DNA of 36,211 bases from NCBI RefSeq assembly GCF_000153345.1, contig NZ_CH724125.1:717611-753821 (forward strand), in the 5' to 3' direction. Made by a program: the position numbers and the translations under genes. This DNA is from Neptuniibacter caesariensis. GTDB lineage: Bacteria > Pseudomonadota > Gammaproteobacteria > Pseudomonadales > Balneatricaceae. Below the pieces are notes generated by a model. The model was not told where the DNA came from. It made no database searches and saw nothing but the letters and a program-made list of their open reading frames with translations. Below are positions 3,612 to 23,053 of the stretch, in pieces (the first letter of the stretch is position 1; every line of letters begins with the position of its first letter).

Positions 3612-4820
3612 TTAATAACCTACCAGCTGGGTGTGTCTCGGCAAAGCGATGGATATCAATACGGTCAAAAATATCATGATCGAGGATATGTACAGGCAGG
3701 CTTCAAGCCCCCAAAGCTGGAATACGGCGCCGGAGAGTATGGTGCCGACCAGGCGCCCCATTGCGTTAGCCATATAGTAGAAGCCTACATCCAGCGAAGT
3801 GCCTTCATTGCGGGCGTAACTAACAATAAGATAGCTGTGCAACGAGCTATTAATAGCAAATATAGCGCCGAATATCCCTAAGCCTCCGAGCAGAATCCAT
3901 TGCGAGTCTAAGCCCTGTGCAATGAGCAGCGGAATACTGCACAGTAAGCTGGCCCAAATCAGAGCGCTGAAACCATCAGGCGTTTTGCCAGATTTTTTTC
4001 CTGTGATCATGGGTGCAATGGATTGGACAAATCCGTAGGCGATTACCCAGGCTGCCATAAAGCTTCCTACCTGCCAGTGATCCCAGTTCAGTTCTTTGCT
4101 GATAAAAACGGGTAGGGCAACAACGAACCACACATCGCGTGAGGCAAAGAGGAACATGCGAGCTGCAGAGAGAATATTTATCGACCGATTTTTTGAAAAA
4201 ATCTCTGTGAACTTTGGTTTAGTACTCGCTACACCGAGGTCTTTCTTGAGCAGGATTAAACTGCAACCTAGTACTATGCATAGCCCAGCTAGCATAAACC
4301 ACATCGCTCCCTGGAAGCCTAGCAAATTGAGAAGCAGGCCGCCCATAAAAAAACCAACCCCTTTTAAGGCGTTCTTGGACCCTGTCAGTATGGCTATCCA
4401 TTTGTAAAGGGTCCCCTGAGCATCACTACTAACGAGTGATTTTATTGAGCTTTTTGCGCTCATTTTATTCAGGTCTTTTGCAATACCGGAAAAAGCCTGC
4501 GCGGCCATAACCCAGGCAATGGATAGATACTCTGTAGGCAGCGTTAGCATTAGTAGCGCAATGACCTGAAGTCCCAGGCCGATATTCATGGTCCGGTTCA
4601 AACCAATTCGGGCGCCAAGCCAGCCGCCAACAAGATTGGTGACAACACCGAAAAATTCGTAGAAGAGGAATAGCAGTGCGATGCTTAAGGCGTTATAGCC
4701 TAGCTGATGAAAGTGGAGCACGACTAACATACGTAGTGCTCCATCCGTCAAAGTGAAGGCCCAATAGTTACCGGTAACTAACAGGTACTGCCTAAGGGCC
4801 TGAGAGTTTAACGAACTCAT
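3612..4820 (-). CDS. arsJ: Organoarsenical (1-arseno-3-phosphoglycerate) efflux permease ArsJ
   Basis: A 402-residue major-facilitator-type membrane protein with about 11-12 segments and the ArsJ opening ([19 protein letters not shown]), plus the region [17 protein letters not shown] near residue 115. In characterised systems ArsJ exports 1-arseno-3-phosphoglycerate, the unstable product made when GAPDH uses arsenate in place of phosphate, so arsenate leaves the cell without being reduced. Its ATG overlaps the stop of the GAPDH gene by four bases (4817-4820), the usual mark of translational coupling. It is the last gene of arsR-gapdh-arsJ and is followed by a terminator. A generic MFS exporter is the alternative, but the context makes ArsJ by far the best call. 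Confidence 0.93.
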
Positions 4821-5827
4821 TTTACAGAATCGATAGCAACGAATTTTGCCAGTTCAACGGTGCGGTTTACATACCCCCATTCGTTGTCATACCAAGCATA
4901 AATTTTTAGCTGAGTTCCGTTTACCACCATCGTTGATAACGCGTCTACAATGCTGGAGCGTGGGTCAGTACGATAATCGATAGAGACTAGAGGGCGCTCT
5001 TCATAGCCAAGTATGCCGTGAAGTTCATTCGCAGCTGCTTCGGCAAAGAGTTGGTTGACTTCATCCACTGTCGTTGCGCGTTCAAGCTCAAACACCATAT
5101 CCGTTAAGGAGGCATTGGCCAGAGGTATGCGAACGGCATGGCCATTCAGTTTGCCGGTTAGTTCTGGGAATATTTGTGTAATTGCTTTTGCCGATCCAGT
5201 CGTGGTTGGGATCAGGCTCATCCCGCATGCTCTTGCCCGACGTAGATCTTTATGCGGTGCATCCAGAATGGTTTGAGTGTTGGTAATGTCGTGGATTGTC
5301 GTCATTGAGCCATGCTTAATTCCAAGCTTCTCATGGACAACTTTAACGACAGGTGCCAGGCAGTTGGTTGTGCAGGATGCAGCCGTAACGATCGGGTATT
5401 TACCTGGTTCGTAAAGGTGGTGGTTGATGCCCATCACCATGTTGAGAACACCTTCCTCTTTCACTGGCGCCGTAACCACAACGTGTTTAACACCCTGATC
5501 CAGATAGCTTTGAAGAAGGGCTTTCTTTTTCATAACGCCACTAGCTTCAATCACTAAATCACACTGAGACCAATCGGTGTCTTCGATTTTTTCATTGCGG
5601 CTTACAGAGATCTGCTTGTCGCCAATTAGCATCATGCCTTCATCGGCAGTGGCTTCATGACCCCATGTACCATGAACTGAGTCAAAGTTAATTAGGTGAG
5701 CCAGGGTGGCTGCGTCGCCTTGTGGGTCATTGATTTGGATGAATTCAAATTCAGGCCATTCCCATGCCGCACGCATGGCCAGTCTTCCCATTCGGCCAAA
5801 ACCATTGATGCCAATTTTAATAGTCAT
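4817..5827 (-). CDS. gapdh: ArsJ-associated glyceraldehyde-3-phosphate dehydrogenase
   Basis: A 336-residue GAPDH. It begins with the NAD-binding motif [10 protein letters not shown] and carries the catalytic Cys152 in ASCTTNC and His179 in TTIHD. The fold is complete through YDNEWGY at the C-terminus. Placed between arsR and arsJ, it is the accessory copy that makes 1-arseno-3-phosphoglycerate from arsenate and glyceraldehyde 3-phosphate for ArsJ to export, rather than the glycolytic enzyme. I start it at ATG 5827, which gives [11 protein letters not shown] directly and has GAG eight bases upstream. A GTG at 5836 overlapping the arsR stop would add three residues and has no ribosome site. 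Tight coupling on both sides indicates one transcript. Confidence 0.93.
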
Positions 5828-5832
5828 TGCGA

Positions 5833-6171
5833 TCACTCATTACAGTTTATTGCTGCGACAGGCCGACTAAGCATTGGCTCAATGAGTTCACGATTACGCA
5901 TGAAGGTCAGGTCTATTACTTCTAGGCACCAATCGGGAAGATCCTGATTTATGCGATAGTAGACCCATTTACCTTTACGGTGATCGCTAAGTATGCAGTT
6001 GCTGCGAAGCAAGGCCAGATGTCGCGAAATTTTGGGTTGGCTCAAAGTGAGCAGATCCGTAAATTCACAGACGCAGAGTTCCTGATGATGTTTAACCAGT
6101 AAGATGAGGTTTAAACGGGTCTCATCTGACAGGGATTTAAAAAACTCAGTGGGTGTCACTGTTTTGTTCAT
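5833..6171 (-). CDS. arsR: Arsenic-responsive repressor ArsR
   Basis: A 112-residue winged-helix ArsR/SmtB-family repressor. The DNA-recognition region is about residues 40-60 ([14 protein letters not shown]). The metal-sensing motif ELCVCEF supplies Cys33 and Cys35, matching the CVC core of enteric ArsR; a third sensing Cys at the usual nearby position is absent, though Cys59 lies in the recognition region. Binding of As(III) to these thiols is expected to release the repressor from DNA. It is the first gene of the operon, and its start codon lies inside a perfect palindrome (6168-6193), which points to autorepression. Its stop lies five bases before the ATG of the GAPDH gene. Confidence 0.93.
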
Positions 6172-8271: not shown

Positions 8272-10317
8272 ATGAGCCGGCGTGTATTCATTATTTTGCT
8301 CTACATTATCTTCACTCTTGCTACGACTTGGCAGGTGGTGACGCTAACGCGTGACTGGACGTTAAGAACGCTTCATCAGCAGGGTTCCGATGAACTGCTC
8401 AAAGTGATTACTCAGTTAAGGGGAGCATTGGATCAATATCGTTACCTGCCTTTTCTTATCTCTCAGGATACCGATGTCAAAGAGTTGATGTTGGGATTTA
8501 CAGAATCTAAAGGAGATGAAGTTAGTCTTTATCTTGAGCAGACCAATCTGGTTGCCGGTTCGTCATCGTTATTTGTATTGAATGCCCATGGCAAGCCCAT
8601 TGCCTATAGCCATTGGCGTGATGAGCGGGATTTCTTTCTCCGTCTTCATCAGGATCAGGATTATTATCGCCAAGCTTTGGCGGGCCATCGGGGCCGCCAA
8701 TTTAGTCTTAATGCGGAGAGTCAAAGCCCGGCATATTTTTTATCTTCCCCTATCTATGATGGTAAACGTTTTACCGGGGTAGCGGTTGTCAGGATTGAAC
8801 TGGAAAAGTTAATAAGCCAGCTGCGATCCTTTGGTGTTGTGCTGCTTAGCGACGAAAATGATCAGCTTTTCTTTTCTACAGGCCCTTTTCAGAGGTTTTC
8901 TCAACTGGGTACACAGATCAAGTCACGTCAGGAGAATCTGACAGACGGTATAACGACCGAGCTTTGGGAGCAGAGTGAGGGTAACTGGCTGGTGCGTGGT
9001 GTTTCATTAGATGATCTGCAATGGCGAGTCACGCTTTTGCAAGACCTGGACGTTGTTCAGCGTAATGTGCGGAATGCATCATTATTCTCTTTCGGGGGGT
9101 GTATTGCATTAGGGTTGATGGTTCTCCTGTTCCGCGAGCGGCAGCTAAAAATTCGTTCGCAAAATGAAACCCGCGAAGCCTTGGCGGCGAGTGAAGCTCA
9201 ACAAAAAGCGATTATCAATAACGCTCAGGTTGGCTTACTGCTTATTGATAGCAAAGGCTGTATTACATTTGCCAATGAGATGGCCCTGCAGCAGTTTGCT
9301 GCCTCTGCGCCTTTGCTCATGCATAAGCCTTTACTGGACCTGTTATCGTCTGAAGGCGTTTCTCCTATTCAAAGATTACTCTCCCGCCTAGACCATAAAG
9401 GCTTTTCCCCGCTTATAGGTTTTGAAGCCGTTGCGGTTAGAGGAGATGGAACCGAATTCCCCATTATGCTTTCAATTCGTCAAATGCTGGCGCTTGTTGA
9501 ACGACAGTACCTTGTGACAATTATTGATATCTCTCGGCGTAAGGGGCTAGAACTACAATTAAAACGCGCAAATGAATCACTGGAGCATAAGGTTGAGGAG
9601 CGAACCCAGGCTCTGCAGGAAGCGCAAGATGAACTGGTCCAGGCAGGTAAAATGGCCGCTATCGGGCGTATGTCTACCGCGGTTGTTCATGAGTTAAACC
9701 AGCCCCTTACTGCTATTCGCAACTATGTGGCGATCTGCCGACAGATGTTGCAGCAGCCCGAAATGCTTTCTGAGAGCTTGACCGAAGTTGATGAACTAAC
9801 CCAGCGTATGGCTCAAATAACTTCGCAATTGAAGACATTTGCGTACCGTAAGCCAGAGCAGATGGAAAAAGTATCAGTGCAGATGGCGGTCAATAATGCC
9901 TTGCATCTGTTCAGGCAACGTTTCATTGATGATGGTTTTCAAGTTGATCTGGATCTTCCTGAGCCGACTGTTTATGTCCTGGGAGATAGCGCCCGACTTG
10001 AGCAAGTCCTGCTAAATCTTATTAAAAATGCGCTTGATGCTATGCAGGGTTTCGATCATAAACAAATCGCCATTCAGGTTGATGCGGTTGATGATAAGGT
10101 TCGGGTGACGGTAGTGGATAGCGGGCCTGGAATTGACATGGACCTACTGCCAGACTTGTTTGAGCCTTTCGTAACCTCAAAATCTATAGGTGATGGGCTT
10201 GGTTTAGGCTTATCGATTGTTCGATCGATTGTCAGAGATCTGAATGGTGAGATCTCTGCTGAAAATCAGACCGGTGGCGGGGCATGCTTCCGCGTCATTT
10301 TACCCCAGAGTAAATAA
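8272..10317 (+). CDS. DctB-like sensor histidine kinase with extra PAS domain
   Basis: A 681-residue inner-membrane kinase. The first membrane helix is about residues 5-24, a periplasmic double-CACHE-like sensor spans about 28-268, and the second helix is about 271-286. A cytoplasmic PAS domain follows (about 303-425), then a coiled coil (KVEERTQALQEAQDEL). The HisKA segment carries phospho-acceptor His473 in VVHELNQPLT, and the ATPase has NLIKNALDAM, DSGPGID and GLGLGLSIV. HELNQPLTAIRNY is characteristic of DctB, the dicarboxylate sensor. Classic DctB lacks the PAS domain, which here could add a second, cytoplasmic input. It is co-transcribed with the sigma54 activator 14 bases downstream and sits upstream of a TRAP transporter, so it probably senses that transporter's substrate. 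Confidence 0.9.
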   Translation: MSRRVFIILLYIIFTLATTWQVVTLTRDWTLRTLHQQGSDELLKVITQLRGALDQYRYLPFLISQDTDVKELMLGFTESKGDEVSLYLEQTNLVAGSSSLFVLNAHGKPIAYSHWRDERDFFLRLHQDQDYYRQALAGHRGRQFSLNAESQSPAYFLSSPIYDGKRFTGVAVVRIELEKLISQLRSFGVVLLSDENDQLFFSTGPFQRFSQLGTQIKSRQENLTDGITTELWEQSEGNWLVRGVSLDDLQWRVTLLQDLDVVQRNVRNASLFSFGGCIALGLMVLLFRERQLKIRSQNETREALAASEAQQKAIINNAQVGLLLIDSKGCITFANEMALQQFAASAPLLMHKPLLDLLSSEGVSPIQRLLSRLDHKGFSPLIGFEAVAVRGDGTEFPIMLSIRQMLALVERQYLVTIIDISRRKGLELQLKRANESLEHKVEERTQALQEAQDELVQAGKMAAIGRMSTAVVHELNQPLTAIRNYVAICRQMLQQPEMLSESLTEVDELTQRMAQITSQLKTFAYRKPEQMEKVSVQMAVNNALHLFRQRFIDDGFQVDLDLPEPTVYVLGDSARLEQVLLNLIKNALDAMQGFDHKQIAIQVDAVDDKVRVTVVDSGPGIDMDLLPDLFEPFVTSKSIGDGLGLGLSIVRSIVRDLNGEISAENQTGGGACFRVILPQSK

Positions 10318-10331
10318 CAGGAAATTCGGCT

Positions 10332-11723
10332 TTGAAAAGTATCGACACCCTGCCAATAGATAATCGCGGCACAGTGCTCTTAGTTGACGACGAGTCAATG
10401 GTGCGTAAATCGACTCAGAAATGGTTACAGTTGGCCGGATTTGAAGTTATTGAGTGCGATAGTGCGATTCAGGCGCTGACCTATATTGATGAGGCTTTTT
10501 CAGGAATCGTCGTCAGCGATGTGAAAATGCCAGAAATGGACGGTTTGGCGCTATTGGATGAGGTTGTATCCCGTGTGCCTGGTTTGCCTGTTGTTCTGGT
10601 TACGGGGCATGGTGATGTGGATATGGCTATCAATGCAATGCGCCAGGGGGCTTATGATTTCATAGAGAAACCTTTTAACCCGGAGCGTTTAGTAGAGACT
10701 ATTCAGCGTGCCTGTGAGAAAAGGCGTTTGATGCTCGAAAATTTGAAGTTACAACAGCATCTGGCTTCATCGAGTGGTATTGATAGTCGATTGATTGGTA
10801 TGTCAGCGTCTATTCAGCGTCTGAAAAAAGAGATTCTGAATCTGGCTGAGATGGACACGAATGTCATCATCTATGGTGAAACGGGAACAGGTAAAGAGCT
10901 CGTTGCCCAGTCTTTGCATGAGTACAGTAACAGAAATAAGGCCCACTTTGTGCCGATCAACTGTGGAGCAATACCTGAATCGCTGATTGAAAGCGAGCTG
11001 TTTGGGCATGAGGCCGGCGCTTTTACCGGTGCGGCTAAGCGCCGGATTGGTAAGTTTGAATATGCGAGTGGCGGCACGCTCTTCCTCGATGAGATCGAAA
11101 GCATGCCGCTTAACCTGCAGATCAAACTGTTAAGGGCGCTTCAGGAGGGTGTGATTGAGCGCTTAGGAGGCAATCAGCCCATTCCGGTTGATCTTCGTGT
11201 GATTGCTGCGGCAAAAACCGATCTTAGAGAAGAGGAGCGGTTTCGAGAAGATCTGTTTTATCGCTTAAATGTATCGCAACTGCATATTCCTCCGCTCAGG
11301 GATCGAATAGAAGATGTTCCGCTGCTGTTTGAACACTATGTGAGGATGACGTCTGAGGACCACCATAAAGAGCAGCGTCATTTCCCGGAACAGGATATTA
11401 GAACATTACAGGGGTACCAGTGGCCGGGTAATGTTCGTGAGCTAAAGAATATCGCTATGCGCTACGCATTAGATAAGCGGTTAAGTGTTGCTGACATTTT
11501 GTTTCCCCAGGAGAGCCAGCTTTCGAGTTCGGCAATAACAGCAGAGTCCGGTCAGCCCCTGGCAGTTCAGGTCGCACGATTTGAAGAGGAAGTCCTCAGA
11601 CTCTCTCTGCAAGAACATAAAGGGAATATTAAAGCCGTCATGGATCAGCTCGATCTTCCGCGCCGTACTTTAAATCAGAAAATGGCTAAGTACGGCTTAA
11701 ACCGTGCTGATTATACTGACTAG
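10332..11723 (+). CDS. DctD-like sigma54-dependent response regulator
   Basis: A 463-residue NtrC-family activator. The receiver is residues about 15-125 with phospho-acceptor Asp63 (VSDVKMPEMDG). The AAA+ domain (about 155-385) has Walker A GETGTGKE near residue 182, the sigma54-contact loop GAFTGA at 229-234 and LFLDEIESMP. A Fis-type helix-turn-helix closes the protein (about 420-460). The sequence ESMP after the DE box is the DctD form, where NtrC has GDMP. The start is a TTG at 10332, with AGGA about ten bases upstream; the next ATG lies inside the receiver. It is the obvious partner of the preceding kinase and the predicted activator of the sigma54 promoter at 11969, binding the palindromes at 11739-11897. 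Confidence 0.92.
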   Translation: MKSIDTLPIDNRGTVLLVDDESMVRKSTQKWLQLAGFEVIECDSAIQALTYIDEAFSGIVVSDVKMPEMDGLALLDEVVSRVPGLPVVLVTGHGDVDMAINAMRQGAYDFIEKPFNPERLVETIQRACEKRRLMLENLKLQQHLASSSGIDSRLIGMSASIQRLKKEILNLAEMDTNVIIYGETGTGKELVAQSLHEYSNRNKAHFVPINCGAIPESLIESELFGHEAGAFTGAAKRRIGKFEYASGGTLFLDEIESMPLNLQIKLLRALQEGVIERLGGNQPIPVDLRVIAAAKTDLREEERFREDLFYRLNVSQLHIPPLRDRIEDVPLLFEHYVRMTSEDHHKEQRHFPEQDIRTLQGYQWPGNVRELKNIAMRYALDKRLSVADILFPQESQLSSSAITAESGQPLAVQVARFEEEVLRLSLQEHKGNIKAVMDQLDLPRRTLNQKMAKYGLNRADYTD

Positions 11724-11738
11724 CCATCATGTTGTGCT

Positions 11739-11762
11739 CAATAGGCATTTTTTTGCCTATTG
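11739..11762. promoter_or_regulatory. Upstream activator palindrome 1 (candidate)
   Basis: CAATAGGCA and TGCCTATTG form a perfect nine-base inverted repeat with a six-base T spacer, about 210 bp upstream of the sigma54 promoter. It follows the regulator gene by 15 bases and might look like a terminator, but no T-run follows the stem, and a similar palindrome with the same spacing recurs at 11841. Confidence 0.6.
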
Positions 11763-11840
11763 GCCTGTTTCGATGATTTATTCATATTTTGCTCAGCATT
11801 TCTTGCTGTTTGTATCTGATGAAATGTAAGAAAAACCCTG

Positions 11841-11862
11841 AATAGGCAAATTCTTGCTTATG
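11841..11862. promoter_or_regulatory. Upstream activator palindrome 2 (candidate)
   Basis: AATAGGCA, six bases, then TGCTTATG. The left arm is identical to that of palindrome 1 and the spacer length is the same; the right arm differs at two bases. It is probably a second binding site for the DctD-like activator. Confidence 0.55.
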
Positions 11863-11875
11863 CTTTTTGTATGTG

Positions 11876-11897
11876 GATAAGCGGTTTTTTGCTCATT
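11876..11897. promoter_or_regulatory. Upstream activator palindrome 3 (weaker candidate)
   Basis: GATAAGCG, six bases, then TGCTCATT keeps the layout of the other two sites with several mismatches, 35 bp downstream of site 2. Tandem sites in this range upstream of a -24/-12 promoter are the usual arrangement for DctD and NtrC. Confidence 0.4.
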
Positions 11898-11968
11898 ATT
11901 TCATTTTTGAATTATGCTGATCTTTATAACATTCTGAAAAATATAGATTTTTTGTTTTTGTTGTAGAT

Positions 11969-11983
11969 TGGCATCCTGCTTGC
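11969..11983 (+). promoter_or_regulatory. Sigma54 (-24/-12) promoter
   Basis: TGGCAT, five bases, TTGC matches the sigma54 consensus TGGCAC-N5-TTGC with one change; the invariant GG (11970-11971) and GC (11982-11983) are correctly spaced. Transcription would begin near 11995, about 40 bases before the binding-protein gene. Confidence 0.85.
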
Positions 11984-12036
11984 TCTAGAGAGAGGGTTAC
12001 TAAAAAAATAAACCTCACTTAAAGAAGGGTAAGAGG

Positions 12037-13065
12037 ATGACAATAACAAAACGCACTTTTATCAAAGGTATGGGATTGGCGCTGGCAATGAGCGCAGCAA
12101 TGGGCACAGCGGGTCTGGCTCAGGCGGCGGAAAAGCGTTCTTATATTCTGGCAACAGCTTCTACGGGTGGTACTTACTATCCGGTAGGTGTAGCACTGGC
12201 GACGCTGACAAAAGTAAAGCTAGAGCCTAAACACAAAATTTCTATGTCTGCGATTAACTCTGCAGGTTCAGGCGAGAACGTCAAACTGCTAGGCGAGAAT
12301 GAAGCACAGTTTGCAATTCTTCAGGGCTTATATGGTGCGTGGGCCTGGAATGGCGAAGGTCGTCTTAAAGAGAAAGGCGCTCAGAAAGGCCTGCGTTCAG
12401 TGACCATGCTGTGGCAGAACGTAGAGCAGTTCGTTGTGAAATCTGACTATGTTAAATCAGGTTCAATCGACGATATTAATGGCTTCGCAGGCAAAAAATT
12501 CTCAATCGGTAAGAAAAACTCAGGTACCGAGGGTTCCGGCCGTACGATTCTGGGTAACCTGAAGGTTAATGTTGATGGCTTTAACCTGGCACATATGGGC
12601 TATGGTGCATCAGCAGATGCGCTACAGAATGGCACGATTGACGGCATGAACATCCCATCGGGTGTACCTACATCAGCTATCACTCGCGCCTATGCTGCAC
12701 TGGGAAGTGATATCACAGTTCTGAATTTTACCGATGAACAGATCAAAGAGGCGAACGGCAGCTATAAGCTTTGGACTCGTTATACCATTCCGGCAAATAC
12801 TTACCCTGGTCAGACCAAAGATATTCAAACAATGGCGCAACCAAACTTCCTGGCTGTACGTGATGATATCAGCGAAGAAGATGTATACCTGCTGACTAAG
12901 ACGGTATATGAAAATCTGCCATTCCTGAACGGTATCCATAAAGCGACTAAAGCAATGGCGCTAGAGAAAGCCATTGCAGGTCTGCCTGTTCCGCTTCACC
13001 CAGGTGCGGCGCGTTACTACAAAGAGCAGGGCATTAATATTCCTGCACACCTGATGGCGAAGTAA
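12037..13065 (+). CDS. TAXI-family TRAP transporter substrate-binding protein
   Basis: A 342-residue periplasmic protein. An export signal covers residues 1-30 and is cut after AQA or one residue later; its TKRTFIKG start resembles a Tat signal with Lys in place of the first Arg. The mature protein opens with ILATASTGGTYYPVG and has NSAGSGENVKLL, both typical of TAXI (TRAP-associated extracytoplasmic immunogenic) proteins and not of DctP. It should capture a small organic acid and deliver it to the fused permease downstream. The start ATG has a good AAGGGTAAGAGG leader. It is the first gene after the sigma54 promoter. Ligand is not evident from sequence; the neighbouring LhgO suggests a C5 hydroxy- or dicarboxylate. 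Confidence 0.93.
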   Translation: MTITKRTFIKGMGLALAMSAAMGTAGLAQAAEKRSYILATASTGGTYYPVGVALATLTKVKLEPKHKISMSAINSAGSGENVKLLGENEAQFAILQGLYGAWAWNGEGRLKEKGAQKGLRSVTMLWQNVEQFVVKSDYVKSGSIDDINGFAGKKFSIGKKNSGTEGSGRTILGNLKVNVDGFNLAHMGYGASADALQNGTIDGMNIPSGVPTSAITRAYAALGSDITVLNFTDEQIKEANGSYKLWTRYTIPANTYPGQTKDIQTMAQPNFLAVRDDISEEDVYLLTKTVYENLPFLNGIHKATKAMALEKAIAGLPVPLHPGAARYYKEQGINIPAHLMAK

Positions 13066-13155
13066 TTCTCTATCAACGAGGACTGAGATAATAGGGAACT
13101 TTGTTGCTGAGCTACAGTCAGAGCATTAACTCCCTTCTTGTTTCATGTTCCTCCG

Positions 13156-13193
13156 GGTGCGGGCTGGGTTACCAGCGAGACCTAGTCTGCACC
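13156..13193 (+). other. Stem-loop between TRAP binding-protein and permease genes
   Basis: GGTGC (13156-13160) pairs with GCACC (13189-13193), and inside it GCTGG pairs with CCAGC (13163-13176). A T/C-rich tract follows (TTTTCTTTC). Such a structure after a binding-protein gene commonly protects the upstream message and partly terminates, giving more binding protein than permease. The 13066-13251 gap holds no other gene. Confidence 0.55.
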
Positions 13194-13251
13194 TCCTTTT
13201 CTTTCTCTATCAGAATTGGCAAGCGCCATCGATCAATTGAGCAAAGCACTT

Positions 13252-15378
13252 ATGTCTACTGAAAATACAGTCACCGATCATGAAGTCAGTGAAAAACTGA
13301 AGGGACTGGAACTCGCCCAGCGTTCTGAACAATCAACAACCGGCAAGCTTATCTACTGGATAGGTGTTGTGTTTGCGTTGGCTCATATCTATTTCAATAC
13401 GCTCGGCACCTGGTCTGAGTTATATGTATCGGCCATCCATTTTGGCGGTTTTGCCCTGATGTGCGCTTTGATGGTGCCAATGTTCAAAGGTGGTAATCGA
13501 GCTCAAAAGAGCTTGGCTCTGGTGTTAGATCTGCTTCTGGGTATTGCCGCGATTGTCTGTGCGCTCTATCTGATTGGTTTTGAAGATGCTCTCTATGATC
13601 GTGGGGTGAAATTTGCCCAGTGGGATTGGGTGTTTTCTGTTTGTGCAATATTTATTGCGCTGGAAATGGCCAGACGCACAACAGGATGGTTCATACCTTG
13701 TTTGATTCTGGTCGCCCTGACTTATGTATTTTGGTGGGGTAAGTATATTGACGGAATTTTCGGTTTTGCTGGATTAAGCCTGGAAACCCTTCTATATCGT
13801 TCATATTTCTCATCTGAGGGAATGTTTGGCCAAATCGCCCGAATTTCATGGACTTATGTTTTCATGTTTATTCTCTTTGGGGCATTCCTTGTAAAATCCG
13901 GTGCGGGTGATTTTATCATTGAGCTGTCTCGATGTGCCGCTGGCCGATTCGTCGGGGGGCCAGGTTTTGTTGCTGTGCTCGGCTCCGGTTTGATGGGTTC
14001 GGTATCAGGTTCGTCGGTTGCGAATACCGTTTCAACGGGTGTTATTACAATTCCGTTAATGAGGAAAGCAGGCTTCCCGGCACGTTTCTCGGCGGGTGTT
14101 GAGGCAGCCGCTTCAACCGGTGGTCAGTTGATGCCGCCTGTTATGGGGGCAGGGGCCTTTATTATGGCTTCCTATACTCAGATCTCCTATCTGGACATCA
14201 TTTCGATTGCCGCTTTACCGGCTCTGCTTTATTTCCTCTCCGTTGGTTTCTTTGTCAGGGTCGAGGCTAAGCGTAGCCATGCGCACGCCGTTGAATTGGA
14301 TACGCGCCCTATAGGTGAGGTTTTCCGAGGTGGGTGGCATTTCTTATTACCGCTGGTTGTGCTGGTCGCGCTGCTTATTTACGGTTTTACGCCAACCTAT
14401 GCAGCAGGTATTTCAATCATCTCTGTCATCGTCTCTTCCTGGTTATCCAAGAATCCAATGGGTATTAAGGAGATTCTGGATGCGTTAGCACAGGGATCGA
14501 AGAACATGGCTACCACGGCTATGCTGCTGATCTCAGTTGGGCTGGTAGTCAATGTAGTCGCAATGACGGGTATCGGTAATACCTTTTCACTGATGGTTAC
14601 TGACTGGGCGGGCGGTAGTTTGCTCATTACCTTGGTGCTGGTGGCGCTCGCGTCTTTAATTTTAGGTATGGGCTTGCCGGTAACCGCAGCCTATATCGTG
14701 CTTGCGACGCTGTCGGCTCCCGCGCTTTATGGACTGATGGCAGAAAGTCGTCTTCTGGATCTGATGGTTGCAGGTCAGTTGCCTGAGGCAGCCAAAACGA
14801 TCTTTATGCTGGTGGATATGGAAAAGGTCGCTTTGCTATCAGCCCCGATGGCGCCGGCAGATGCCCAGGCGCTGCTGAGTCTGGTCCCTGCGGATTTCAA
14901 GGGACAACTTCTTGAGCAGGCGCTAGCACCAGAAACCCTGGCGATGATTCTCCTCTCGGCGCATATGATTATTTTCTGGCTCTCGCAGGACTCTAACGTT
15001 ACACCGCCTGTTTGCCTGACTGCTTTTGCCGCAGCCGCAATTGCTAAAACACCGCCAATGGCGACAGGTTTCACCGCCTGGAAAGTGGCTAAAGGCCTTT
15101 ATATCGTGCCACTGTTATTTGCGTATACCAATTTCATTGGTGGTGAGCCTTTAGAAGTATTGAGCATCTTCATTTTTGCCGTGTTTGGTTTATATGGATT
15201 TGTTGGTTTTATGGAGGGCTATCTGGAAGGGCGCTTGAACCTTATAAGTCGAGCGTTGTGCGGAGTTACAGCCATGGCATTGCTGTGGCCTCATGGTGAA
15301 CTGATGATAAATCTGCTGGCTATGTTAGCATTTGCGGTAATTTTCTGGCTTAGCCGAAGAAATTCTGAGACCGCATAA
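13252..15378 (+). CDS. Fused TRAP transporter permease (4TM/12TM, TAXI type)
   Basis: A 708-residue membrane protein combining the small (DctQ-like) and large (DctM-like) TRAP subunits, the normal form for TAXI systems. About four N-terminal membrane helices (residues 30-165) precede about twelve helices of the transport domain. The latter shows SGSSVANTVSTGVITIPLM and STGGQLMPPVMGAGAF in the first half and GMGLPVTAAYIVLATLSAP and DSNVTPPVCLTAFAAAAIAK in the second, the paired hairpin motifs of DctM. It is driven by a sodium gradient in studied relatives. I choose ATG 13252; a TTG at 13216 would add 12 residues, and neither has a strong ribosome site. It forms an operon with the binding protein and lhgO. 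Confidence 0.92.
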   Translation: MSTENTVTDHEVSEKLKGLELAQRSEQSTTGKLIYWIGVVFALAHIYFNTLGTWSELYVSAIHFGGFALMCALMVPMFKGGNRAQKSLALVLDLLLGIAAIVCALYLIGFEDALYDRGVKFAQWDWVFSVCAIFIALEMARRTTGWFIPCLILVALTYVFWWGKYIDGIFGFAGLSLETLLYRSYFSSEGMFGQIARISWTYVFMFILFGAFLVKSGAGDFIIELSRCAAGRFVGGPGFVAVLGSGLMGSVSGSSVANTVSTGVITIPLMRKAGFPARFSAGVEAAASTGGQLMPPVMGAGAFIMASYTQISYLDIISIAALPALLYFLSVGFFVRVEAKRSHAHAVELDTRPIGEVFRGGWHFLLPLVVLVALLIYGFTPTYAAGISIISVIVSSWLSKNPMGIKEILDALAQGSKNMATTAMLLISVGLVVNVVAMTGIGNTFSLMVTDWAGGSLLITLVLVALASLILGMGLPVTAAYIVLATLSAPALYGLMAESRLLDLMVAGQLPEAAKTIFMLVDMEKVALLSAPMAPADAQALLSLVPADFKGQLLEQALAPETLAMILLSAHMIIFWLSQDSNVTPPVCLTAFAAAAIAKTPPMATGFTAWKVAKGLYIVPLLFAYTNFIGGEPLEVLSIFIFAVFGLYGFVGFMEGYLEGRLNLISRALCGVTAMALLWPHGELMINLLAMLAFAVIFWLSRRNSETA

Positions 15379-15399
15379 CAGTAGAGAAGGTTAGTTTTA

Positions 15400-16620
15400 G
15401 TGACTAAATCTGAACATCACACCATTTATGATTTTGTCGTCATTGGCGGAGGCATCCTTGGGATGTCTACTGCCTGGCAGCTACAGAAAAAATATCCGGA
15501 TAAAACGGTTCTGGTCGTCGAGAAGGAATCGTCTGCAGCTCAACATCAGACAGGGCATAACTCAGGCGTTATCCATGCGGGTGTTTATTACAAGCCAGGT
15601 AGTTTGAAAGCAAAGTTCTGCAAAGCGGGTAATCGGGCGACTAAGGCGTTTTGCCTTGAACACGATATCCCATTCGACGAGTGTGGCAAGCTCTTGGTCG
15701 CAACCAATGCAACTGAATTAGAAAGGATGCAGGGGTTAATTGAGCGTTGTGCTGAAAACGAGCTCGAGATCGAGGTGCTTGATCAGAAGCAGTTAACCGA
15801 AAGAGAGCCTAATGTTACGGGCGTGGGCGCTATCTTCGTCCCGTCTACCGGTATTGTTTCGTTTACGAAAATAACTGAGAAAATGGGCGAGTTAGTTGAG
15901 TCTCAGGGAGGCGTTGTTCGCTTTAATACCCGCGTAGATAAGATTGAAGAATTCTTTGATCGGGTGACTCTCTATACAGATAAAGGGCGCTTTCACGGGC
16001 GTTATCTTATTAGCTGTGCAGGTCTTCAGTCTGATCGAATTGTGAAGATGCTAGGGCTTGAGCCGGATTTCCGAATTATCCCCTTTCGCGGAGAATACTA
16101 CCTTCTGTCAGCGAAGCATAACCAGATAGTTAATCATCTTATCTACCCCTTTCCTGACCCGGATCTGCCATTTTTAGGCGTACATCTAACGCGGATGATA
16201 GATGGCACGGTGACCGTTGGACCGAATGCGGTTCTAGCGTTTAAGCGTGAAGGTTATCGGAAGACGGATATCAGTATCAAAGATAGTCTGGAGATGTTGG
16301 CTTATCCGGGCATGATCAAGCTTTTGTTACGGCATTTCAAAGCGAGCATGGCTGAACTTAAGAATTCAATTTCTAAATCGGGTTACCTCAAATTGGTGCA
16401 GAAGTATTGCCCGACCCTCGATTCCGAGGATATGCAACCTTACCCAGCGGGGATCCGAGCGCAAGCTGTATCGGAAAACGGTGATATCGTGGATGACTTT
16501 TTATTTATGTCGACAAGTCGCTCCCTTGCTGTATGCAATGCACCTTCTCCTGCGGCAACTTCTGCGATACCCATCGGAGAGCACATCGTAGAAAAGTTGG
16601 CTGAAATTATCAGTGAATAG
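15400..16620 (+). CDS. lhgO: L-2-hydroxyglutarate oxidase LhgO
   Basis: A 406-residue FAD enzyme of the DAO family. The dinucleotide-binding motif is VVIGGGILGMSTA near residue 12, followed by the LhgO signature GHNSGVIHAGVYYKPGSLKA and the C-terminal GIRAQAV and NAPSPAATSAIPIG. It oxidises L-2-hydroxyglutarate to 2-oxoglutarate and passes electrons to the quinone pool. The start is a GTG with GAGAAGG nine bases upstream. It follows the TRAP permease by 21 bases, so it is in the sigma54-driven operon. In Escherichia coli lhgO sits with csiD and the gab genes; none are present here. Linkage to an uptake system suggests the substrate comes from outside rather than from glutarate hydroxylation. 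Confidence 0.92.
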   Translation: MTKSEHHTIYDFVVIGGGILGMSTAWQLQKKYPDKTVLVVEKESSAAQHQTGHNSGVIHAGVYYKPGSLKAKFCKAGNRATKAFCLEHDIPFDECGKLLVATNATELERMQGLIERCAENELEIEVLDQKQLTEREPNVTGVGAIFVPSTGIVSFTKITEKMGELVESQGGVVRFNTRVDKIEEFFDRVTLYTDKGRFHGRYLISCAGLQSDRIVKMLGLEPDFRIIPFRGEYYLLSAKHNQIVNHLIYPFPDPDLPFLGVHLTRMIDGTVTVGPNAVLAFKREGYRKTDISIKDSLEMLAYPGMIKLLLRHFKASMAELKNSISKSGYLKLVQKYCPTLDSEDMQPYPAGIRAQAVSENGDIVDDFLFMSTSRSLAVCNAPSPAATSAIPIGEHIVEKLAEIISE

Positions 16621-16675: not shown

Positions 16676-16944
16676 TAAGGAACCTGCGAATAAGTCTAAT
16701 GCTTTCTCAGTGGGCTGTAGAACGTCCATATGCGAGAAAGGCAGTGCCGCGAAATGTCTGGACCTTTTCAAACTGACTGACAAAGCAGATGGCCGTTTTA
16801 AAGCCCACCCTATGGGGCTTACAGAGTAAACGAATCGCTTTGTTAATAATTTTCGCCAGGCAACCAGCATGACTGTAATTATTGCCTCGCGCTTCATTTG
16901 CTCTGTAAGCCTGAGGCGCATCGGACTTGTTCGTAGGTTCCTTA
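16676..16944. mobile_element. 269-bp MITE-like element with terminal and nested inverted repeats
   Basis: The ends (16676-16696 and 16924-16944) are 21-base inverted repeats differing at two positions. They begin TAAGGAACC and end GGTTCCTTA, so TA occurs at both borders, as expected if a TA target was duplicated. A second pair inside (16816-16838 and 16889-16911) matches in 20 of 23 bases. No transposase is recognisable; a minus-strand frame stays open across it but looks like no family I know. The element ends two bases before the TAGGAG ribosome site of the next gene. Confidence 0.65.
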
Positions 16945-16958
16945 ATAGGAGATTTAAA

Positions 16959-17603
16959 GTGGGATCGATTCTGGCTTTTCTAATGCTTGCCATTCTGATT
17001 TTGGTACTGTTTTTCTATCTGCGCCGCAATAAGTTTCGCCACAGAATCAAGCTTATCGATTCCTACCGTTTTCCAAATCGGCTCAATGAAGCAATTAAGA
17101 AACGATATCCACATCTGACAGAGCAGGATGTTGATAGGGTAATCATTGGGCTGAGAGAATACTTTCAGATATCGCTGATGGCGCGAAAGCGAATGGTGGC
17201 GATGCCTTCACAGGTAGTGGACCTTGCCTGGCATGAATTTATTCTTTTTACCCGTCATTACGAGGCGTTTTGTAAGCATGCTTTGGGAAGGTTTCTCCAT
17301 CATACCCCTGCTGAAGCGATGCGAAGCCCAACAGATGCCCAAGAGGGGATTAAGCGTGCCTGGCGTTTATCCTGTCAGCGGGAAGGGATTGATCCACACA
17401 AGCCTAATCGTCTACCCCTGCTGTTTGCTTTAGATTCTGAACTCAAGATAGATGATGGCTTTAACTACAAGTTGGATTGCAAGGCGCTACAAGACAATGG
17501 TTACTGCGCCAGCCATATAGGGTGTGGCGGTGGATGCAGTGGCGGTTGTGGCGGCGATTCAAGCTCCGATTCCGGCTGTGGGGGAGGTTGCGGCGGAGAC
17601 TAG
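16959..17603 (+). CDS. GRDP-like membrane protein with Gly/Cys-rich tail
   Basis: A 214-residue protein of unknown function. The start is fixed by TAGGAG at 16946-16951, seven bases before a GTG at 16959; an ATG at 16869 would run through the repeat element and has no ribosome site. Residues about 3-20 are a membrane helix, residues about 30-130 resemble the glycine-rich-domain-protein (GRDP-like) family with VDLAWHEFILFTRHYEAFC and GRFLHHTP, and the last 27 residues are almost only Gly, Cys, Ser and Asp (GCGGGCSGGCGG). The tail may bind metal or be disulfide-linked. It converges on the NlpC/P60 gene, six bases apart. Confidence 0.8.
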   Translation: MGSILAFLMLAILILVLFFYLRRNKFRHRIKLIDSYRFPNRLNEAIKKRYPHLTEQDVDRVIIGLREYFQISLMARKRMVAMPSQVVDLAWHEFILFTRHYEAFCKHALGRFLHHTPAEAMRSPTDAQEGIKRAWRLSCQREGIDPHKPNRLPLLFALDSELKIDDGFNYKLDCKALQDNGYCASHIGCGGGCSGGCGGDSSSDSGCGGGCGGD

Positions 17604-21307: not shown

Positions 21308-21457
21308 ATTATTCAAATGATGTTTTATTTCTACATTAAATCTAGCAAAACTTGATGCTGAGCAATTTTCCTTGCTGATCAGTGCATTAGAATGGCCCGA
21401 TCAAAGCGGGTAATCGGTCGGAAAGCCTCACCGCTCATACTTAACCAAGGAGGGGAT

Positions 21458-23053
21458 ATGATAAACGCCATATCTAACCTGATAGACAAAACCTTACGTA
21501 CCTTAGGCTGTAAGACGATTAACAGCCAGTTCACCCTGTCATATGCGCTGATTTTCCTCCTTGCCGCTTCTTCTGGTATTAGCCTCTATTTCAGTATGGC
21601 GATCAACCCGCAAACGATAAATATGGCTGGACGGCAGCGAATGCTGAGCCAGAAAATTGCTAAAGAGGCATTACTGGTTGCGGCTCAGGTTGAACAGCAA
21701 TCAACGCTCAAGAAAACAATGGAGCTCTTTGAGTCATCGCATAAGAAAATCATGCTGGGTAATGAAGAGTTAGGCATGAATGCAATTAAAGACTCTGAAA
21801 TTCTCAAGCAGATGCAGCATGTAGAAACCTTGTGGGCAACCTACAAGGGGGTTATCGAATCGCACATTACTCAACCCTCAGAAAGTACAACGCTAGATAT
21901 AATGAAACAGTCGCCTGTTGTTCTGAAAGAGATGAATAAAGCGGTTGTGATGATGACCAACAAGGCCAGTGATACCAACATGCAGCAGCTAATGATCGCT
22001 TTAGTTTGTGTGCTGGGAATTCTCTTGCTGGTGGTGTTTGGGCGTATCTTTGGTTTGCGGATCTTAATGGATAATATCCGCCGCTTGAATGCCCGTATGA
22101 GTGAGGTGGGTGAAGGAAACTTCTCGCATCGCTTTAATATTACTCATACCGATAATGAGATCGGCCAAATGTTCCTCGCGTACAATAATATGTTGGATCA
22201 CGTGGGACAGCTGCTTCAAACCGTCCAGACGGTTGCGAAGAATACGGAGATCCATGTTAGCAATGTTGTTAAGGCAACGTCTGATGCCAGTATGGGCGTT
22301 GGGCGGCAGTATGAGGATATCGAGCTGGTTGCGGCTGCAATGACAGAGATGAGTGCAACTGTTCAGGAGGTTGCTAATAATGCTCAGGAAGCCGAACTGG
22401 CTGCTCAGGAAACTGATGGGCACGCGAAAGACGGTGGCACTGTCGTGGGTAGATCAGAGTCTGAAGCGCAAAAAATGGTCACCATGCTCAATGAAACCGC
22501 TTCAATGTTGTCTGAATTAGAAGAGGAAAGCCAGGCAGTTGGTAATGTCACATCCGTAATCACGGGTATTGCTGAGCAAACTAATTTGCTTGCTTTGAAT
22601 GCTGCAATCGAGGCTGCACGTGCTGGCGATCAGGGGCGTGGGTTTGCCGTAGTGGCAGATGAGGTAAGAACCTTAGCCCAGCGCACTCAGCAATCTACCC
22701 GGGAGATTCAGGATATTATTGAGCGTCTGCAGAGCAAAGCAGAATCTGCCGTTTCATCAATGGGCGAGAGTACAGAGCTTGCAGGTAAAAGTAGTGAGCT
22801 GGCTAATTCCGCTGCGTCTGTACTGGATCAGATTATCTGTTCGACGAATACTATTTCGTCAATGAACACCATGATATCCACTGCTGCAGAACAACAGTCG
22901 GCGGTTGCCACAGATATTGACCAGCGGGTCGTAAACATCTCTGATATAGCGGGGCAGACTAAGCGAGATACTGAGAAAGTCGTGGAAGCGACAGATCTGA
23001 TTCGTAAAGAAGCGCACGAACTCAATCAGTTGGTTATGAAGTTTCAGTTATAA
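21458..23053 (+). CDS. Methyl-accepting chemotaxis protein with PilJ-type sensor
   Basis: A 531-residue receptor. I start it at ATG 21458, which has a near-perfect AAGGAGGGG ribosome site; the frame opens further upstream at 21392 without one. Membrane helices are near residues 24-46 and 178-198. The periplasmic part carries [19 protein letters not shown], the mark of the PilJ_N / type IV pilus methyl-accepting family also seen near nitrate sensors. A HAMP domain follows, then the signalling tip [32 protein letters not shown]. No CheR-tethering pentapeptide ends the protein. It signals to a CheA-CheW array, either flagellar or pilus type. It is not clustered with other chemotaxis genes. Confidence 0.93.

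Follow-up and report, generated by a model that had tools for sequence, protein, structure and literature searches.

A TAXI-TRAP transporter locus with a conserved sigma54 promoter and a linked L-2-hydroxyglutarate oxidase gene in Neptuniibacter caesariensis

We have analyzed a cluster of five genes in a 36,211 nucleotide stretch of the Neptuniibacter caesariensis genome (contig NZ_CH724125.1, positions 717,611 to 753,821 of the forward strand), referred to here as the window. The ORF list of the window places all five ORFs on the + strand, at the positions given in an earlier sequence-only reading. The ORFs and the features between them are as follows.

8272..10317, + strand: sensor histidine kinase with DctB-like periplasmic dCache, PAS, HisKA and HATPase domains
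10332..11723, + strand: sigma54-dependent response regulator with receiver, AAA+ domain with GAFTGA (by eye) and Fis HTH
11741..11761, no strand: activator-binding-like palindrome copy 1, ATAGGCA-N6-TGCCTAT
11842..11862, no strand: activator-binding-like palindrome copy 2
11877..11897, no strand: degenerate palindrome copy 3, 35 bases from copy 2
11969..11984, + strand: sigma54 -24/-12 element TGGCATCCTGCTTGCT, 52 bases upstream of the TAXI ATG
12037..13065, + strand: TAXI-family TRAP solute-binding protein (TIGR02122); N-terminal signal region without cysteine (by eye)
13155..13194, + strand: hairpin with T-rich tail between the TAXI and permease genes
13216..15378, + strand: fused TRAP membrane subunit (TIGR02123)
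15400..16620, + strand: L-2-hydroxyglutarate oxidase LhgO (NF008726), starting 21 bases past the permease gene

The gene set proposed in that reading (kinase, regulator, TAXI protein, fused TRAP subunit and LhgO) is confirmed by the ORFs and by family models. The TAXI protein scores 322 bits to TIGR02122 (cut-off 84), the fused subunit 650 bits to TIGR02123 (cut-off 321) and LhgO 604 bits to NF008726 (cut-off 299). In profile searches the kinase matches HisKA, HATPase and PAS above cut-off, with a dCache match slightly under it (41.4 vs 45 bits, Pfam dCache_1); its periplasmic part resembles the DctB sensor structures 3by9 (65 bits) and 3e4o (37.5 bits). The regulator combines a receiver, a sigma54-activation and a Fis-type HTH domain. 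Its top NCBIfam matches, NtrC and AtoC, are both under cut-off, so that DctD-like, the label first applied to it, holds only loosely. As in DctB/DctD-type systems, the regulator is a sigma54 activator and its presumed target carries a sigma54 promoter. The terminator-like total for the hairpin region (11, against 9.9 expected from shuffles) is not above chance.

As a lone pattern match TGGCATCCTGCTTGCT is not significant, with 41 matches in the window against 58 expected; single-pattern significance was dropped and conservation across loci used instead. The counts cover 79 of 80 related loci, L137 being omitted because its upstream region is too short. A sigma54 score of at least 9 of 11 is found in 66 of these 79 homologous upstream regions, against about 5% of shuffles. 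The -24/-12 element precedes the TAXI gene in all 58 related loci with an adjacent regulator and in 8 of the 21 without, and the promoter postulated between regulator and transporter is thus real as judged by its conserved position. The palindromes, like the sigma54 site, are conserved across related loci. Exact copies of the longer palindrome form number two in the whole genome, both at the window locus; copy 3 is 76% identical to copy 1 and falls outside the strict RGCA-N6-TGCY matches. Upstream of lhgO genes unlinked to TAXI, the strict form occurs in 7 of 37 rows (6 csiD-linked, scanned upstream of lhgO and not of csiD, and 1 other), none of the 7 with AT-rich flanks. The single other match is the only one among 14 lhgO rows apart from both TAXI and csiD; four of these 14 reach 9 or 10 in the sigma54-like score, always more than 370 bases away. 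Shared activator control of TAXI-unlinked lhgO genes is therefore unsupported by the palindrome and sigma54 scan.

Drosophila L2HGDH contacts 2-oxoglutarate through S88, H92, Y289, L299, H302 and R393, according to passages of PMC10726252. All six are kept in LhgO, as S55, H59, Y249, L259, H262 and R353, without variation among the 73 LhgO rows. The window LhgO matches a characterised L-2-hydroxyglutarate dehydrogenase at its substrate contacts, and its activity is predicted on that basis. A second LhgO in the same genome belongs to an ordinary csiD-lhgO cluster, whose regulator is, by eye, of the GntR type. CsiD has a single match in the genome (G000:C3:362001), beside this other LhgO, and the window locus is without csiD; a glutarate pathway at the window locus was rejected for this reason. 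Given the separate csiD-lhgO cluster, the window lhgO is an extra copy, tied to the transporter.

Linkage was examined in a sample of 60 family genomes. TAXI is present in 45 and a full TAXI orthologue in 44, since the TAXI gene of G049 is cut by a contig end. Among the 44, the fused TRAP subunit adjoins TAXI in 43, lhgO lies beside TAXI in 21 and all five genes are together in 18; the gene order of the window thus recurs among relatives, and lhgO is not separate from the transporter in all of them. It is apart in 23 of the 44, a few of them truncated at a contig end. At E up to 1e-60, LhgO is found in 43 of 45 genomes with TAXI vs 4 of 15 without (p 2.7e-7, kinship ignored), the two TAXI genomes with no match at E 1e-60 being G037 and G050. 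The 23 unlinked genomes, these two without LhgO and the VcGluP key residues kept in the TAXI protein (below) count against the reading that we prefer. csiD is absent from 24 of the 47 LhgO-bearing family genomes, and in 16 of these 24 an LhgO is linked to TAXI; 5 genomes carry csiD as well as a TAXI-linked LhgO.

Over all 80 loci, lhgO is near the transporter in at least 27, and the TAXI tree requires no fewer than 9 changes of linkage state. Both counts treat a locus truncated by a contig end as lacking lhgO, so that the 27 linked loci are a minimum and the 9 changes may be an overestimate. For the LhgO tree, 85 rows were reduced to 75 by identity; 11 loci (L146, L158, L211, L209, L198, L195, L086, L121, L134, L129 and L220) were omitted and 9 added, giving a final tree of 73 rows. 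The TAXI-linked LhgOs do not form one clade on this tree (AU p 1e-68, at least 4 changes forced) and are drawn from several LhgO lineages, three singly linked rows sitting on long branches. Among 368 other gammaproteobacterial genomes, TAXI is found in at least 13, LhgO in at least 9 and both in at least 2; up to 5 first-look candidates were scored per genome, so misses are possible in these counts. In both co-carrying genomes TAXI and LhgO are adjacent, in two different gene orders, and the palindromes are absent. Chance neighbourhood of lhgO and TAXI was examined by means of these trees and this outside sample. The pheA-trmH site, which in the window holds both lhgO and the regulator-transporter block, may in relatives hold just one of the two, and some of the linkage may therefore reflect inherited position. 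Importer and LhgO seem to have been brought together independently in several bacterial lines, which points to a little-studied route of 2-hydroxyglutarate utilisation. The earlier proposal of a regulated uptake-and-oxidation unit, with LhgO tied to the transporter, is borne out by the linkage and by the several LhgO lineages that take part in it.

Among solved structures the TAXI protein is closest to PDB 9ibp ("Immunogenic protein"; 496 bits over residues 16-341), whereas VcGluP is remote (116 bits). Residues Y45, S75 and Q93 of VcGluP are kept as Y47 (identical in 34 of 37 orthologues), S78 (in 37) and Q96 (in 36), and G156 and G203 are likewise kept. H123, E125, D157, Y200 and M201 are replaced by W126, N128, T164, I206 and P207, and all 37 orthologues have N128 in place of E125. 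Published VcGluP mutants indicate that Q93 and Y45 matter most for glutamate binding, followed by S75; E125 touches the amino group, and E125A costs only 1.3-fold. A pocket-based argument against glutamate is weakened by these mutants. Passages of PMC12344293 and PMC11574862 cite a Proteus mirabilis TAXI-TRAP (PMI1055-type) as specific for 2-oxoglutarate and 2-hydroxyglutarate; another passage names alpha-ketoglutarate as its ligand and describes it as H+-driven.

What the sequence establishes is the genes themselves, a conserved promoter architecture, the active site of LhgO and repeated linkage. We favour as probable the reading that the genes constitute a sigma54-controlled TAXI-TRAP importer of 2-oxoglutarate and L-2-hydroxyglutarate, the latter oxidised by LhgO. 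The kinase would sense a periplasmic dicarboxylate and phosphorylate the regulator, which would bind the palindromes at 11741-11897 and activate the sigma54 promoter at 11969. Both acids would be bound by the TAXI protein and taken in by the fused TRAP subunit; LhgO, whose gene may share a transcript with the transporter genes, would feed the TCA cycle by converting L-2-hydroxyglutarate to 2-oxoglutarate. The TAXI ligand may instead be 2-oxoglutarate or glutamate.

If the transporter imported 2-oxoglutarate, LhgO could act in metabolite repair, removing L-2-hydroxyglutarate formed by intracellular side reactions, and external hydroxyglutarate would be unneeded. Such an arrangement would explain why lhgO is optional at the locus and yet LhgO is nearly always somewhere in the genome. 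Deficiency of the mammalian enzyme is termed a metabolite-repair disorder in the title of PMC4357467, and the excerpted part of PMC8694187 lists MifS, a dCache kinase that groups with DctB, as governing 2-oxoglutarate transport and use in Pseudomonas aeruginosa. We consider repair rather unlikely, since the recurrent placement of lhgO from several lineages beside the transporter fits a link through the substrate better than housekeeping.

Uptake of L-glutamate (or glutamine), as by VcGluP, with LhgO linked through downstream handling of 2-oxoglutarate, would agree with the retained residues that matter most in VcGluP. Glutamate is described, in the sources as excerpted, as a common ligand of the TAXI family; glutamate transport has been proposed from mutants for a Cereibacter TAXI system, and AauS is listed as a DctB-like sensor for glutamate/aspartate uptake (excerpt of PMC8694187). 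The substitution of E125 and of four other pocket residues tells against it, as does the presence elsewhere in the same genome of another TAXI-TRAP that resembles VcGluP and lies next to a UspA-like gene (both likenesses by eye). To our knowledge LhgO catalyses no step in glutamate catabolism, and we regard glutamate uptake as improbable. The departures from the VcGluP pocket would also suit another 2-hydroxy or 2-keto acid, handled by an LhgO of shifted specificity; this is very improbable, given that every LhgO row keeps all six substrate contacts of L2HGDH.

2-Hydroxyglutarate is known chiefly for being an oncometabolite and for its place as an intermediate in lysine degradation. If bacteria took it up by a route with a dedicated sensor, it would become a nutrient that is traded, and a substrate would be assigned to a TAXI group found in 45 of 60 sampled family genomes, within a transporter class that has few known ligands. 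A bolder extension of the importer reading, which we offer tentatively and would not bet on, is that extracellular L-2-hydroxyglutarate is a nutrient exchanged in marine communities, sensed by the DctB-like kinase and imported by the TAXI-TRAP. On this view a second LhgO would be reserved for a use separate from the lysine/glutarate pathway, and the pairing would have been assembled independently several times from different LhgO lineages. The promoter architecture is a ready reporter for identifying the sensed compound. A literature search pairing "L-2-hydroxyglutarate oxidase" with "TRAP transporter" found no papers; in a wider search, among the 25 papers listed of 229, only PMC12344293 joins hydroxyglutarate with "tripartite ATP-independent".

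Parts of the locus have known counterparts, and the view that both partners play an unusual role was too strong in light of the P. mirabilis TAXI-TRAP, MifS/AauS and P. putida W619 lhgO, as described in the available passages. The csiD-lhgO glutarate pathway (E. coli glaH-lhgD-gabDT) uses the same oxidase family, and such a pair exists elsewhere in this genome; the window locus differs in having no csiD and in replacing the GntR regulator with a transporter and a sigma54 pair. In P. putida W619 lhgR-lhgO, as in the window, lhgO is without csiD, and it is argued to serve L-2-hydroxyglutarate itself; its regulator, unlike that of the window, is a GntR repressor, and the excerpt of PMC8206213 mentions no transporter for it. 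The V. cholerae L-glutamate system VcGluP/VcGluQM (VC0430/VC0429) shares the TAXI family and the fused permease; VC0430 has argR, mdh and uspA as neighbours, and in published work 2-oxoglutarate did not shift its thermal stability. The PMI1055-type system (Roden et al. 2023, Biol Chem 404:715), compared by its description, is a TAXI-TRAP like that of the window; the title of that paper and a citing passage emphasise membrane-anchored lipoprotein binding proteins, in contrast to the window protein with no N-terminal cysteine (by eye), and the passages on it mention neither a regulator nor lhgO. MifS and AauS are described in part of PMC8694187 as DctB-like sensors tied to C5 acids, grouping with DctB in 29 of 100 bootstraps. 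DctB/DctD, MifS/MifR and AauS, so far as the available passages describe them, likewise join a DctB-like dCache kinase to a carboxylate transporter; the window pair differs from them in that its target is a TAXI-TRAP.

The five genes of the unit at 8272-16620 are all on the forward strand, and their open reading frames agree with the positions proposed in the sequence-only reading. The window corresponds to G000:C5:717611-753821, where G000 is its own genome of 3.92 Mb. Solved DctB sensors resemble the periplasmic part of the kinase, and the regulator has receiver, sigma54-activation and Fis-type DNA-binding domains. The TAXI protein, whose closest named relatives are from Neptuniibacter, the fused TRAP subunit and LhgO all pass their curated cut-offs; lhgO is separated from the permease gene by a gap of 21 bases. 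On sequence evidence, the unit probably encodes a dedicated oxidase together with a sigma54-controlled TAXI-TRAP importer of 2-oxoglutarate and L-2-hydroxyglutarate.

Among the other genes of the window, an arsenic-resistance cluster at 3612-6171 on the reverse strand comprises an ArsR-type regulator, an ArsJ-associated GAPDH and the ArsJ organoarsenical efflux gene. The 244-aa ORF at 16869-17603 (forward strand) has a C-terminus rich in Cys and Gly and no match in Pfam or NCBIfam; two of the five named Neptuniibacter loci have a homologue 3' of lhgO. Three genes separate lhgO from a chemoreceptor (21392-23053, forward strand), the top NCBIfam match of which, CtpM, is far under the cut-off (257 versus 900 bits); CtpM is described in PMC8694187 as acting in malate chemotaxis.

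LhgO is encoded near the TAXI gene in 27 of 80 named homologous loci, some of which are cut by contig ends. The lhgO gene is directly 3' of the permease in 22 of the 27, past a short ORF in 1, and past an intervening kinase gene in 4, in one of these on the opposite strand. No other gene following the permease in the 80 loci is comparably frequent over both Oceanospirillaceae and Vibrionaceae; the next commonest cluster, a protein of unknown kind, occurs in 11 loci, mainly of Amphritea. TAXI orthologues are present in 45 of 60 sampled genomes of the family, and beside the full gene (44 genomes) are found the permease in 43, the regulator in 39 and the kinase in 36. The sequence-only reading tied lhgO to import, and in relatives the gene is not always apart from the transporter: it is linked in 21 of the 44 genomes, and all five genes are present in 18. 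Two loci, L044 (G039) and L142 (Neptunomonas antarctica), which may be one genome, have tandem TAXI duplicates before a single permease. At L252 (G198) no permease was found beside the TAXI orthologue (57%); the gene after it is peptidase-like (by eye).

At L215, L217, L219 and L222, lhgO alone directly follows trmH, where the window has the whole regulator-transporter-lhgO block; other relatives have the regulator-transporter block without lhgO at that same site. These arrangements mark the site after trmH as an exchange or insertion point, and position alone may account for some of the linkage seen in the family.

LhgO is encoded somewhere in 43 of the 45 TAXI genomes and in 4 of the 15 others (Fisher p 2.7e-7, without correction for kinship). 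The csiD gene is missing from 24 of these 47 genomes, 16 of which carry TAXI-linked LhgO. Both csiD and TAXI-linked LhgO are found in five genomes, each with a second, csiD-linked LhgO. The second LhgO of G000 (59% identical) is directly 3' of csiD and adjoins a GntR-type regulator (by eye); thus glutarate-derived L-2-hydroxyglutarate has its own enzyme. Only a few genes from this pair is a second TAXI-TRAP system (L036, G000:C3 4615-8706), which by eye is similar to VcGluP, the L-glutamate TAXI of Vibrio cholerae, and includes a UspA-like gene (likewise by eye). Drosophila L2HGDH is reported to contact 2-oxoglutarate through S88, H92, Y289, L299, H302 and R393 (PMC10726252); the counterparts in the window LhgO are S55, H59, Y249, L259, H262 and R353, and all six contacts are kept in 73 of 73 LhgO rows.

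The 34 TAXI-linked rows of the 73-row LhgO tree do not form one clade (AU p 1e-68). Linkage takes 8 parsimony changes, at least 4 of them forced by starred branches, and the first LhgO tree (75 rows) likewise needed at least 4. The linked groups are the window's lineage, a Vibrio/Photobacterium lineage, and a group (support 94, not starred) that joins Amphritea balenae with Oceanospirillum and Motiliproteus; single linked rows from G019, G208 and G415 are all on long branches. In the TAXI tree (98 rows), where cut loci are scored as unlinked, parsimony counts 16 changes of linkage, of which no fewer than 9 fall on starred branches. Among 368 genomes outside the family, 13 carry TAXI and 9 carry LhgO (E up to 1e-90). 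Two of them carry both, side by side, in the order lhgO-TAXI-TRAP in one and TAXI-TRAP-lhgO in the other. In L253 and L256, from distant gammaproteobacteria, TAXI-TRAP comes after a kinase-like gene of another kind and the gene of a short response regulator (by eye), hinting that two-component control of TAXI-TRAP was acquired more than once.

Between the regulator and transporter genes, the window contains:
start 11741, first of three related 21-base sequences, its arms forming a perfect palindrome
start 11842, second 21-base sequence
start 11877, third 21-base sequence
11969-11984, -24/-12 sigma54 element downstream of the three, 11/11 key positions matched

A sigma54 promoter had been proposed here from the window alone, and conservation bears it out: the element scores at least 9/11 in 66 of 79 homologous upstream regions versus ~5% of shuffled copies, and is present in all 58 loci with an adjacent regulator and in 8 of 21 without. 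In these 58 loci plus the window, there are 85 matches to the strict palindrome RGCA-N6-TGCY, spread over 42 of 59 regions, where shuffles predict 0.93 regions. Spacers of N3, N4, N5, N8, N9 and N10 show no excess over shuffles in the 59 regions; N7 occurs in 8, versus a shuffle maximum of 3. The strict form is also found in 8 of the 21 loci without an adjacent regulator. There are no palindromes in G208 and G415, and none with the flanking consensus upstream of unlinked lhgO genes. ATARGCA-N6-TGCYTAT without mismatch is represented in G000 only by the two unit copies, among the matches listed. We infer that the palindrome may be the binding site of the unit's regulator, the control of which would be local. 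Two copies are ~34 bases apart in many loci, which would fit binding on one helix face.

The closest solved protein to the window TAXI is PDB entry 9ibp. For glutamate binding by VcGluP, Q93 and Y45 are reported to matter most and S75 next, with little effect of E125, Y200 and M201 (PMC11574862). The window protein keeps Q93, Y45 and S75, whereas H123, E125, D157, Y200 and M201 are changed. Single rows aside, 37 orthologues differ at only two of the aligned pocket positions, 206 (27 I, 10 T) and 47 (34 Y, 3 F). The pocket therefore appears suited to a five-carbon dicarboxylate, altered on the side that would face an amino group. The kept residues would also suit glutamate itself, but the linkage of lhgO to the transporter and the separate VcGluP-like system in G000 make this ligand improbable. 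The strongest rival, import of 2-oxoglutarate with LhgO as a repair enzyme, is unlikely, though less so than glutamate; lhgO is not beside the transporter in 23 of the 44 family genomes, which counts against import coupled to oxidation. The missing palindromes in G208 and G415, their absence in flanked form before unlinked lhgO genes, and the part that position may play in the linkage weigh in the same direction.

The favoured reading remains import of both acids with oxidation by LhgO. The assembly, its promoter and its repeated formation had no description in the literature searched, among the matches listed; the component parts are already known. For a TAXI-TRAP of Proteus mirabilis, PMC12344293 cites specificity for 2-oxoglutarate and 2-hydroxyglutarate, and PMC11574862 gives alpha-ketoglutarate with H+ coupling.
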